Source: Acetobacteraceae bacterium (GTDB lineage Bacteria; Pseudomonadota; Alphaproteobacteria; Acetobacterales; Acetobacteraceae). From it: 43,427 nucleotides of DNA. The position numbers and the translations under genes were made by a program. Of this stretch, positions 11,478 to 17,986 are shown one piece after another. The notes under the pieces are model-generated. The model saw nothing but the letters and a program-made list of their open reading frames with translations. It searched no databases and had not been told where the DNA came from. Location: NCBI GenBank assembly GCA_027487675.1, contig JAIYDD010000075.1, positions 1 through 43,427 of the forward strand, written 5' to 3'. Numbering within the stretch: position 1 is the stretch's first letter; each line of letters starts with the position of its first letter.

Positions 11478-12359
11478 TTGCGCAAGAAGGTCATCTTCAA
11501 GGGTGTCGCCCTGCCCTACCTGCTGCTGATGCCGCAGCTTCTGGTGACCGCGGTCTTCTTCTTCTGGCCGGCGGGGCAGGCCATCTACGGCTCCTTCCTG
11601 CGCGAGGACGCCTTCGGCCTGTCGCGCGAATTCGTCGGCTTCGAGAATTTCCAGGACGTGCTGTCGGACCCGAACTACCTGTCCGCGGTCTGGAACACCG
11701 TCGTCTTCTCCTCCTCGGTCGCCGTCATCGCGCTCGGCGCGGCACTGTTCCTGGCGGTGCAGGCGGACAAGGCGATCCGCGGCGCGGATGCCTACAAGAC
11801 CATGCTGATCTGGCCCTATGCGGTCGCGCCCGCGGTCGCCGCCGTGCTGTGGCTGTTCATGTTCCATCCGCAGATCGGCCTGTTCGGCAAGCTGATCAAC
11901 GGCATGGGGATCCGCTGGGACTACAAGGTCAATGGCGACCAGGCGATGCTGCTGGTGATCCTGGCCGCGGCGTGGAAGCAGGTGAGCTACAACTTCATCT
12001 TCTTCCTGGCCGGGCTGCAGTCGATCCCGCGCAGCGTGCTGGAAGCCGCCGCCATCGACGGCGCGCGCCCCGTGCGGCGCTTCTGGACGGTGATCTTCCC
12101 GCTGCTGGCCCCGACCAGCTTCTTCCTGCTGGTGGTCAACATCGTCTACGCCTTCTTCGACACCTTCGGGATCATCCACGCCCTGACGCAGGGCGGCCCG
12201 GGCAAGGCGACGGAGACGCTGATCTACAAGGTGTATGTGGACGGGGTGCAGAACCTGAACTTCGGCGCCTCGGCGGCGCAGTCCGTGGTGCTGATGGCGA
12301 TCGTCATCGCGCTGACGGCGATCCAGTTCAGGTTCATCGAGCGCAAGGTGCATTACTGA
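11478..12359 (+). CDS. ugpA: ABC transporter permease, UgpA-like
   Basis: The 293-residue inner-membrane protein has about six hydrophobic segments and the ABC permease EAA loop [20 protein letters not shown], which docks on the ATPase UgpC. The MalF/UgpA family context is clear ([20 protein letters not shown] start, late [17 protein letters not shown]). The start is TTG at 11478 with AAGAGGGG upstream; no ATG is available nearby. Its stop overlaps an ATG (TGATG at 12357-12361) that may have been the original ugpE start before the element at 12369-12858 inserted. Confidence 0.9.
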
Positions 12360-12376
12360 TGGACGCGCACGAAAAG

Positions 12377-12417
12377 CCCTCTCCCCCCTTGGGAGGAGAG
12401 GGTTGGGTGAGGGGGGG
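12377..12417 (-). repeat. Left inverted copy of the palindromic repeat
   Basis: The hairpin CCCTCTCCCCCC / GGGAGGAGAGGG (arms 12377-12388 and 12391-12402) is followed by TTGGGTGAGGGGGG. It is the reverse complement of the copy at 12812-12852 apart from a few bases in the hairpin tip. Confidence 0.85.
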
Positions 12418-12421
12418 TCCC

Positions 12422-12766
12422 TCAGCCCTTCGCACGCATCCGCGCGTGGCGAAGGATGTCGGCGAGCACGCCCTCCACGTTGTCGGCGACATCGCTGTTC
12501 CAGTAGCGCAGCACCTGCCAGCCCATGGCCGCGAGCTGCGCGTCCCGCGCCGCGTCACGCGCCCCGCCGTGCTGCCCGCCATCCACTTCAACGATCACCC
12601 GCGCCTCGATGCAGGCGAAATCGGCGGTATAGGGCGGGATCGGGTGCTGGCGCCGAAACTTGAAGCCGTGCTGGCGGCTGCGCAGGGCGGACCACAGGCT
12701 GCGCTCGGCGTCCGTCGCGTCCCGGCGCAGGCGGCGGGCGCGGGTGTGGGCGGGTGGTGCGGGCAT
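12422..12766 (-). CDS. DUF559 endonuclease-domain protein
   Basis: The 114-residue protein matches the DUF559 family, a PD-(D/E)XK-like fold related to Vsr mismatch endonucleases. Visible signatures are ARRLRRDATDAERSLWSALR (conserved Glu), GFKFRRQHPIPPYTADFACI (conserved Asp), VIVEVDGGQH (E-x-D active-site strand) and a C-terminal WQVLRYWNSDV. All expected acidic residues are present, so it is probably an active nuclease rather than a relic. It lies on the strand opposite to the ugp operon, tightly enclosed by inverted palindromic repeats, with no methylase or antitoxin nearby. A role in spreading or maintaining the repeats is an inference; the biological function of DUF559 proteins is not established to my knowledge. 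Confidence 0.85.
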   Translation of the reverse strand: MPAPPAHTRARRLRRDATDAERSLWSALRSRQHGFKFRRQHPIPPYTADFACIEARVIVEVDGGQHGGARDAARDAQLAAMGWQVLRYWNSDVADNVEGVLADILRHARMRAKG

Positions 12767-12811
12767 CGGATGCGAGGCTAGGCGATGCAGCGACGACCTG
12801 GCCAGCCTGTT

Positions 12812-12852
12812 CCCCCCTCACCCAACCCTCTCCCCCCTGCGGGGGGAGAGGG
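12812..12852 (+). repeat. Right copy of the palindromic repeat
   Basis: CCCCCCTCACCCAACCCTCT runs into a perfect hairpin, CCCTCTCCCCCC (12826-12837), loop TGC, GGGGGGAGAGGG (12841-12852). It is the inverted partner of 12377-12417 and ends 18 bp before the ugpE start. Confidence 0.85.
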
Positions 12853-12870
12853 CTTCGTCGGGGCCCTTCG

Positions 12871-13776
12871 ATGCTGATGCGCGACACCACGGCGGAAGAC
12901 CTCGCGCTGGCCCGCGCCACGGCACGCCGCCAGGCGCGCAGCCGCTGGGTCGCGCATGCGATCCTGGCCTTCGGCGTGCTGATCTTCGCCTTCCCGATCT
13001 GGATCACCATCGTCGGCTCGACGCATGACGTGAACACCATCGGCCGCGGCGAGGTGCCGCTGTGGTTCGGCACGGAGGCCATCGCCAACTACCTCTCCGC
13101 CTGGCTCACCGGCGGGTCCGGCGTGCGGCAGACGGGCGCGGTGCCGGTCTGGCTGATGCTCTGGAACAGCGCGGTGATGGCGGTGCTGATCGCGGTGGGG
13201 AAGATCGCGATCTCGCTGCTGTCGGCCTATGCGGTGGTGTTCTTCAGCTTCCCCGGGCGCATGGTCTGCTTCTGGCTGATCTTCATCACGCTGATGCTGC
13301 CGGTCGAGGTGCGCATCATCCCGACCTTCGAGGTGATGGTGAACCTCAACCTGATCAATTCCATGGCCGGCCTCGTCGTGCCGCTGGTGGCCTCCGCCAC
13401 CGCGACGCTGCTGTTCCGGCAGTTCTTCCTGACCATCCCCGACGAATACGTGGAGGCCGCGAAGATCGACGGCGCGGGGCCGATGCGCTTCTTCAGGGAC
13501 GTGGTGATGCCGCTGTCGGTGACGAATGTCGCGGCGCTGTTCGTCATCCTCTTCATCTATGGCTGGAACCAGTATCTCTGGCCGCTGCTGATCGTCTCGG
13601 ACAAGGACCTCGAGACGGTGGTGGTCGGCATGACCAAGATGATCGGCTCGGGCGACCAGCAGAACGAGTGGAACGTCATCATGGCGACCGCCGTGCTGGC
13701 GATGCTGCCGCCGGTGCTTGTCGTGGTGCTGATGCAGCGCTGGTTCGTGAAGGGCCTGACGGAGACGGAGAAGTAG
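12871..13776 (+). CDS. ugpE: ABC transporter permease, UgpE-like
   Basis: The ~301-residue inner-membrane protein has hydrophobic segments from about residue 27 ([20 protein letters not shown]). It carries [11 protein letters not shown], typical of UgpE/MalG N-terminal periplasmic loops, and the EAA loop [20 protein letters not shown] for contact with UgpC. The ATG at 12871 (alternative 12877) was chosen because upstream codons fall in the palindromic repeat. No good ribosome-binding site precedes it (GTCGGGGCCCTTCG). The inserted element separates it from ugpA, to which it was probably once directly coupled. Its expression may depend on read-through across the element. Confidence 0.88.
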
Positions 13777-14915: not shown

Positions 14916-14963
14916 GCCCCCCCTCACCCGGCCTCTCCCCCCCTCGGAGGGAGAGGAGAAGAG
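14916..14963 (+). repeat. Solo copy of the palindromic repeat, GGCC variant
   Basis: CCCTCACCCGGCCTCTCCCC leads into CCTCTCCC / GGGAGAGG (14932-14939 and 14949-14956). It has GGCC where the DUF559-flanking copies have AACCC. No nuclease gene is attached. It sits between ugpC and the next gene. Confidence 0.75.
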
Positions 14964-17158: not shown

Positions 17159-17171
17159 GGGTGGCGCGCGG

Positions 17172-17662
17172 CGGGCCAAAGTGGCTGTGTCAGCTTGTCG
17201 ATTTGGTGCTTTAGCGTTTTGGGCATTGGCGGGCGCGCGCGGCGGAGCGTGACGATTCAGCGATGTACGGGTAAAGTGACTGTGTTACATTGGCTTTTTG
17301 GCGCTTTGTCTAATCTGACGCATGCGCAGCGGCGTGGCGGCGGCGGACGGCAAGCCGAACTGGCTGTGTCGCCTCGGCGCTCAGGCGCTTTGGGAAGCGG
17401 ACGGCGAACGCGGCCGGGCGTTCTCATCCAGCGATATCCGGGCGAAGTGCCCGTGCCACATGGGCCTTTTGGCGCTTTGGCCGGTCTGGCGCATCTGCGA
17501 TGGCATGGGGGGCGGCGGATGGCGAGCCAAAGTGGCTGTGTTGCGTTGGCGGTTTAGCACTTTGACCAGCGGAGGGCGTACGTGGCTGGGCGTTCTGATT
17601 CAGTGGCATCCGGGTAAAGTAGCTGTGTCACATTGGTCTTTTGGCGATTTAGGCGATTCTAT
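17172..17662 (+). repeat. Six degenerate ~86-bp tandem units
   Basis: A core resembling AAAGTGGCTGTGTCACATTGG followed by TTTTTGGCGCTTTG recurs at 17178, 17273, 17357, 17444, 17529 and 17616 (spacings 95, 84, 87, 85, 87). Alternate units are more alike, giving a higher-order period of about 172 bp in three copies. The cores are clearly less GC-rich than the genome. In units 2, 4 and 6 one reading direction gives related peptides (IQRCTGKVTVLHWLFGAL, IQRYPGEVPVPHGPFGAL, IQWHPGKVAVSHWSFGDL), but frames shift between copies and no convincing gene spans the array. Function unknown. Confidence 0.7.
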
Positions 17663-17883: not shown

Positions 17884-17927
17884 GCCCCCCTCACCCGGCC
17901 TCTCCCCCCGCGGGGGGAGAGGGGAAG
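17884..17927 (+). repeat. Solo palindromic repeat, GGCC variant
   Basis: CCCCTCACCCGGCCTCTCCC merges into a perfect 24-bp palindrome, CCTCTCCCCCCG / CGGGGGGAGAGG (17899-17922). It is the same family as the copies at 14916 and 12812. Confidence 0.75.
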
Positions 17928-17959: not shown

Positions 17960-17986
17960 CTCACCCCTGCGCGGGGAGAGGGGAAG
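17960..17986 (+). repeat. Truncated palindromic repeat
   Basis: CTCACCCCTGCGCGGGGAGA keeps the TCACCC lead and the right hairpin arm (GGGGAGAGGGG) but lacks most of the left arm. It looks like an internally deleted copy 33 bp after a complete one. Confidence 0.6.

Follow-up and report, generated by a model that had tools for sequence, protein, structure and literature searches.

Introduction

In the RAYT/REP systems (REPtrons and REPINs), as described in the accessible portions of the literature, one small gene lies between two inverted palindromes, related palindromes are dispersed through the genome as singlets and inverted doublets, and a genome may hold several lineages, each with its own palindrome type and usually as distinct single copies (PMC2817692, PMC3116915, PMC3733652). 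The CGTC-tagged REPs, which are abundant in Alphaproteobacteria, are reported in the available part of PMC3733652 to be without a dedicated transposase and to be missing from Acetobacteraceae. Nuclease genes have also been proposed to behave selfishly: those of the PD-(D/E)XK family COG4636 are suggested to proliferate in genomes, although this is another nuclease family than the one considered here, and cognate palindromes are not named for it in the available text (PMC551604). The family considered here, DUF559 (PF04480), includes YcjD of Escherichia coli and VsrA of Caulobacter. In the part of the VsrA paper that was available, repeats are not mentioned and the string 'palindrom' has 0 occurrences (PMC12907096), and a literature search of open-licence papers found none that joins DUF559 to palindromic repeats.

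A DUF559 unit between ugpA and ugpE

The window, that is, the whole stretch of 43,427 nucleotides that was analysed, comes from an Acetobacteraceae bacterium and contains a ugpBAEC operon, whose products UgpB, UgpA, UgpE and UgpC each exceed their own NCBIfam cut-off. Between ugpA (11478–12359, + strand; PRK10561, 381 bits, cut-off 335) and ugpE (12877–13776, + strand; PRK10973, 360 bits, cut-off 297; with 12871 or 12877 as its possible start codon) lies a unit of 476 nt (12377–12852, with no strand assigned to the whole), composed of a left repeat, a DUF559 gene and a right repeat. The gene (12422–12766, − strand) is antisense to the operon and encodes a Vsr/homing-endonuclease-like protein of 114 aa that matches PF04480. 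The left repeat is formed by an outer hairpin, CCCTCTCC..GGAGAGGG (12377–12402, − strand), and an inward tail, TTGGGTGAGGGGGG (12403–12416, − strand), and the right repeat by an inward tail, CCCCCCTCACCCAA (12812–12825, + strand), and an outer hairpin, CCCTCTCCCCCC..GGGGGGAGAGGG (12826–12852, + strand). The two are mirror images, with both tails facing the gene: from the outside inward, each reads CCCTCTCCC-loop-GGGAGAGGG, then TT, then GGGTGAGGGG, and the inverted pair extends over 34 nt with 88% complementarity. The coordinates, the Pfam match and the complementarity confirm the sequence-only reading of a 114-residue nuclease gene enclosed by inverted palindromic repeats inside the ugp operon. 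Of the solo copies which that reading had placed at 14916, 17884 and 17960, the first two hold as tail plus hairpin (14917–14956 and 17885–17924, both + strand), whereas the third (17960–17982, + strand) is a hairpin-only relative (repeat family D4). Downstream of the operon, at 17165–17655, there are also three direct repeats of 148 nt with a spacing of 171–172, two of which are 62% and 76% identical to the reference copy.

The window gene is the sole DUF559 match in the source genome (5.18 Mb, 288 contigs), where the strict pattern CCCTCACCCN{0,3}CCCTCTCCC detected 64 copies, 35 forward and 29 reverse, against 0 for its control. With a looser hairpin-plus-tail pattern, in which nested matches are counted separately, there were 108 matches against 13. 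The strict copies formed six close pairs, four of them inverted with tails inward and two in tandem. A search for Y1_Tnp (PF01797) in this genome returned no match.

The locus thus resembles the RAYT/REP arrangement, as far as the available sources describe it, in having a gene flanked by two inverted palindromes and many dispersed copies. It differs in that the enzyme belongs to PF04480 rather than to the Y1/HUH transposases and in that the repeats, read directly in the window, have a hairpin-plus-tail structure without the GTAG tag; the Y1 transposase and the GTAG tag are both defining REPtron features. With the CGTC REPs it shares short palindromes, but the window hairpins lack a CGTC tag at their ends, and the source belongs to the family from which, in the text available, such REPs are reported missing.

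Flanking repeats across DUF559 loci

A total of 200 DUF559 loci were sampled: 30 from the family (drawn from 200 genomes), the 30 top matches of the class, 60 further class loci chosen by hand among the places listed for 385 genomes of the class, and a named group comprising the best 80 of at least 574 loci. Of the 192 core domains recognised in these loci by a profile (see below), ten were unscorable, eight for short flanks and two for runs of N. Using a motif-free test, we compared the 300-nt left flank of each gene with the reverse complement of its right flank and set the result against shifted windows of the same locus, which numbered roughly 20 to 630 according to locus length. Before deduplication, 149 of 182 loci beat every shifted window; after dropping five duplicates (the same genome present in two collections), 144 of 177 did so (named 60/72, class-top 23/29, class-more 45/56, family 16/20), and 135 of 167 when ten loci whose flanks are homologous to those of another member were also removed. 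By the same test, 33 of the 177 deduplicated loci lacked a significant flanking pair. These data extend the association proposed for the window to DUF559 genes elsewhere and refute its absence beyond this locus.

The positive loci include Xanthomonas, Dyella, Thiobacillus, Caulobacter, Bradyrhizobium and Desulfobacca, together with metagenome-assembled genomes (MAGs) labelled SAR202 Chloroflexi, Chloroflexus, Nitrospirae and Omnitrophota, labels that could be wrong. A confinement to Acetobacteraceae is therefore not supported, since other Alphaproteobacteria, Beta-, Gamma- and Deltaproteobacteria and the MAGs with Chloroflexi, Nitrospirae and Omnitrophota labels are positive as well.

When one repeat pattern was applied to 187 deduplicated loci, the innermost copies pointed tail-in in 176 cases and tail-out in 35, with 57 loci being tail-in on both sides and 49 having no copy under this pattern. 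A repeat copy was present in 3 of 241 control windows, and the association also holds in AT-richer loci. Nine family matches of a different type (L022–L030), whose open frames range from 292 to about 1800 aa and in most cases exceed 1000, had no repeat copy in the retrieved DNA. Reading by eye, limited to three loci, showed DUF559 genes flanked by inverted palindromes of other sequence types in Deinococcus (L318), where they are tail-out, and in Pseudanabaena (L319), and a DUF559 gene on a Sphingomonas plasmid (L320) with no palindrome on its 5' side.

Genome-wide copy number and RAYTs

Copies of the hairpin-plus-tail pattern were counted in 385 alphaproteobacterial genomes, a DUF559 match being considered strong at an E-value of at most 1e-20. 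Three or more copies were found in 74 of the 92 genomes that have a strong DUF559 match and in 23 of the 293 others (OR 48, p 5e-41), and at least ten in 57 of 92 versus 11 of 293. As these counts take in nested matches and the copies beside DUF559 itself, it is the threshold of ten that leaves ample room for copies adjoining the gene. Ten of the 92 DUF559 genomes had zero copies under the pattern. Given that genomes are not independent, carriers were also compared with non-carriers within families: across 35 discordant families, carriers had higher counts in 30, lower in 2 and tied counts in 3.

A RAYT-like set of 40 was chosen by a weak E-value plus a long open frame, before any comparison with repeat counts. 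The threshold of three copies was reached in 57 of the 71 genomes that have DUF559 but lack Y1, in 14 of 17 with DUF559 and a RAYT-like gene, in 3 of 23 with a RAYT-like gene only and in 19 of the 242 that lack both DUF559 and Y1. Y1 genes taken together were not associated with the repeats (OR 1.3, p 0.45), and RAYT-like genes showed a weak excess (OR 2.4, p 0.012), which counts against the DUF559 reading. The dispersed repeats track DUF559 rather than RAYTs.

None of the six RAYT-like loci that were read carries the DUF559-type repeats. Two of them, L246 and L247 (in G193 and G150, respectively), are flanked by GTAGGGCGGATG-type repeats, as judged by eye. Both genomes contain many CCCTCTCCC repeats and gave no DUF559 match in the family search, so that either two repeat systems coexist in them or one of the systems is orphaned. 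When the pattern was loosened further, every one of the 27 chosen genomes or records gave matches, against 0 to 11 for the reversed control; the counts (nested matches included) extended from 1, for the L147 genome, to 520, for Azospirillum, with 3 in the E. coli record.

Repeat variants and nuclease lineages

Within the genus of the source organism, a DUF559 match was detected in 9 of 15 genomes, one of the nine being a long fused protein. Genome G206 carries four DUF559 genes and G202 two, of different lineages; one of the genes in G206 matches that of Roseomonas sp. AR75 exactly, which makes the genus probably Roseomonas-like. The lineage found at ugp is accompanied by CCTCTCC/GGGTGAGG repeats, most other lineages of the genus by CCTCCCC/GGGTGGGG repeats and the L012/L282 lineage by a GGGAGGGGG tail, and within one genome, in both G206 and G202, the repeat variants follow the nuclease lineage. 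Across loci, with genomes present in two collections excluded, protein identity and repeat similarity were weakly but significantly correlated (Mantel r 0.144, p 0.004, 141 loci), also after removal of the flank-homologous loci (r 0.156, p 0.007, 133 loci).

Unit ends, possible movement and empty sites

Two loci of a single genome (L074 and L205, both in G501) have DUF559 genes that are 74% identical and repeats that are nearly identical, and their flanks gave no BLAST match to each other. The right boundary of similarity falls a few bases past the hairpin; on the left, the two loci resemble each other from the hairpin inward, a boundary read from the sequences because the alignment itself ran on for about 50 nt of weak similarity past the left hairpin. 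In this two-locus comparison the unit is bounded by its own repeats. It was the only informative one among four paralogous or related pairs, the other three alignments running through the flanks. Between L078 and L198, located in two different genomes belonging to one family, 81% is shared and the flanks are unrelated.

At the ugpA–ugpE junction, the unit is present in 3 of 15 genomes of the same genus, a different filler of about 150 nt in 7 and neither in 5, and it is found at 0 of 7 loci from other genera; the relatives thus do not all carry the gene at the same place. The three ugp-site genes form one group in the DUF559 tree (support 82/91) with 68–72% identity. In the ugp tree, the three carriers are not sisters, and the sister row of each lacks the gene and has the filler. 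Considering that the three genes group together at this level of identity, a recent jump into ugp is rejected; one old insertion with patchy retention, loss, replacement or transfer fits best. The filler, which is rich in GC palindromes (L036, L037, L038, L041, L043, L044 and L045), recurs at the L282 locus and is possibly another dispersed element.

A second site, L271, holds the unit in G203 only. The same site has a solo repeat in G152, repeat pairs in G204, G206 and G210, a tail-tail palindrome in G200, none of these repeats in G201, G202 and G207, and unrelated DNA in G205, G208, G209 and the source genome. Inspection by eye of the ugp and L271 sites revealed no target-site duplication; the host flanks at both have diverged. 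At orthologous loci such as L107/L127, L130/L153 and L157/L183, DUF559 is 76–81% identical at the nucleotide level and the flanks 85–92%, a lower conservation that fits a gene which is selfish or evolves fast.

The enzyme

The window protein is a member of PF04480 (E 3.4e-36, 123.9 bits, cut-off 20.6). A profile built from 17 loci gave 192 core domains at a score of at least 60 (four loci had no match and five domains scored lower). Residues E15, D43, D56, H60 and D65 are present in the window protein and kept in 188–192 of the 192 domains, 7 of which contain an internal stop, so most DUF559 copies look capable of catalysis, as judged from these alignments. The putative catalytic residues align with those named for Caulobacter VsrA, a member of the same Pfam family whose proposed active-site spacing also matches, according to the available part of the source (PMC12907096).

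An AlphaFold2 model (56 sequences, pLDDT 87.4) gave Foldseek matches at E-values up to 1e-3 to 3hrl, a Neisseria endonuclease-like protein that came first, and to two chains of the EDxHD homing endonuclease I-Bth0305I (PDB 3r3p; E 1e-4, TM-score by target 0.75). The likeness to I-Bth0305I extends to a weak sequence match (E 0.019), but that enzyme is listed as a mobile-intron protein, whereas DUF559 shows no sign of an intron and is bounded by palindromes. The fold match to Vsr (1vsr) was moderate (E 0.013, TM 0.41–0.47), and the protein remained under the cut-offs of both the Vsr family TIGR00632 in NCBIfam (26.1 bits, cut-off 97.85) and the YcjD equivalog (103.8, cut-off 218). From the model and these comparisons, DUF559 is best read as a single-domain EDxHD/Vsr-type nuclease. 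Weak matches to the C-terminal parts of the large anti-phage proteins ProA and Hhe were also obtained. The domain thus seems to occur in fusions with large helicase-like proteins of defence as well, and these lack the repeats.

Origin of the association

The flanking inverted repeats are conserved and preferentially oriented, and the catalytic residues are near-invariant. The gene and its two palindromes probably form one minimal mobile unit, similar to a REPtron but with an unrelated nuclease. The dispersed repeats would be the cognate ends of this nuclease and its non-autonomous derivatives, and we infer both that it cuts the palindrome and that it is what drives the spread. The REP/RAYT-like arrangement initially proposed thus stands in its general architecture (144/177 loci) and in its genome-level association (385 genomes), with neither a recent ugp jump nor a limit to Acetobacteraceae.

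An unlikely alternative is that DUF559 is a hitchhiker inserting into or beside palindromes that another enzyme has spread, the palindromes serving as targets for insertion, the role that REPs have for some insertion sequences according to the available text of PMC1525189. This would account for the repeat pairs and solo repeats at the L271 site in relatives without the gene, for the at least three copies in 19 of the 242 genomes without DUF559 or Y1, and for repeats of similar type adjoining DUF559 in many phyla. It would not explain why copy number follows DUF559 within families, why distinct DUF559 lineages in one genome carry distinct repeat variants, or why the innermost copies are oriented 176 to 35; moreover, Y1_Tnp, the sole other enzyme compared, does not track the repeats.

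Less likely still, DUF559 would be a Vsr-like host repair enzyme, as has been suggested for Caulobacter VsrA, and the palindromes incidental, for instance bidirectional terminators or scars. The Vsr-like fold and residues are consistent with such a role, as are the conserved place of ycjD in 3362 of 5426 E. coli genomes and, in the part of the source available, the findings reported for VsrA (DUF559), which is SOS-induced and to which the SOS response of a methyltransferase mutant is due (PMC12907096). However, incidental repeats would neither track DUF559 genome-wide nor keep inward tails on both sides, and the nine matches of a different type lack repeat copies. A host-repair role and a repeat-spreading role are compatible and do not exclude each other.

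It is very improbable that the repeats owe their spread to a RAYT (Y1/HUH transposase), whether still present or since lost: apart from the weak excess in RAYT-like genomes, which remains, the source genome has no Y1_Tnp, few RAYT-like-only genomes reach three copies, and the RAYT-like loci carry no DUF559-type repeats, two of them, in repeat-rich genomes, having the GTAGGGCGGATG type instead. RAYTs as the main driver were rejected on the family and class tests together with these six loci. Finally, chance or composition, which the GC-richness of the repeats and of most of the genomes might suggest, is refuted by the shifted-window, reversed-pattern and control-window controls, and the pattern holds in AT-richer loci.

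Proposed mechanism and implications

If the gene and its palindromes form a mobile unit, DUF559 may recognise the palindrome as a single-stranded hairpin, a cruciform or a slipped hairpin and would nick the folded or slipped repeat; repair from another copy, in a break-and-copy, homing-like process, could then spread the repeat, with or without the gene. For a PD-(D/E)XK-type hydrolase, a covalent phosphotyrosine intermediate like that of RAYTs is not expected.

The tail nearly reproduces the 3' arm of its hairpin, differing by a single base in 108 of 266 parsed repeats, and the change is A to T in 65 of these 108, or 65 of all 266. Pairing of the outer arm with the tail would consequently leave, in such repeats, a T.T mismatch, the kind of lesion that a Vsr relative might sense. 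The mismatched outer-arm-to-tail fold was less stable than the plain hairpin in 4 of 4 repeats, and, at 65 of 266, a T.T-mismatch rule for every repeat is not supported. A broader proposal, which we regard as tentative and rather doubtful, is that DUF559 founds a class of minimal elements in which a hydrolytic Vsr/homing-type nuclease spreads palindromes across phyla via a slipped-fold T.T mismatch, a nick and repair, many RAYT-independent palindromes being its products.

The association provides a candidate partner enzyme for widespread GC-rich palindromic repeats in genomes without RAYTs. It also places DUF559/YcjD/VsrA, currently regarded as a mismatch-repair-like family, in a genomic context. 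Palindrome spread would have evolved at least twice, with unrelated enzymes, if the repeats are indeed driven by the nuclease.

Nuclease-driven spread is directly testable with ycjD of E. coli K-12 and vsrA of Caulobacter. The ycjD gene lies between sapF and fabI, and in the 3362 genomes mentioned above it is present with its surroundings, most of the stretch being matched. A clean empty site in E. coli was rejected: the two ycjD-less strains that were opened contain a five-gene cassette of MFS, outer-membrane, RND and TetR efflux genes at this position, and the site therefore represents a replacement rather than a clean insertion. A repeat of the same type as at the other DUF559 loci is located on the 3' side of ycjD, and upstream of the gene (L266) there is a perfect inverted repeat, TCTTGTCAGAATGAGGTG, which is unlike the DUF559 repeats.
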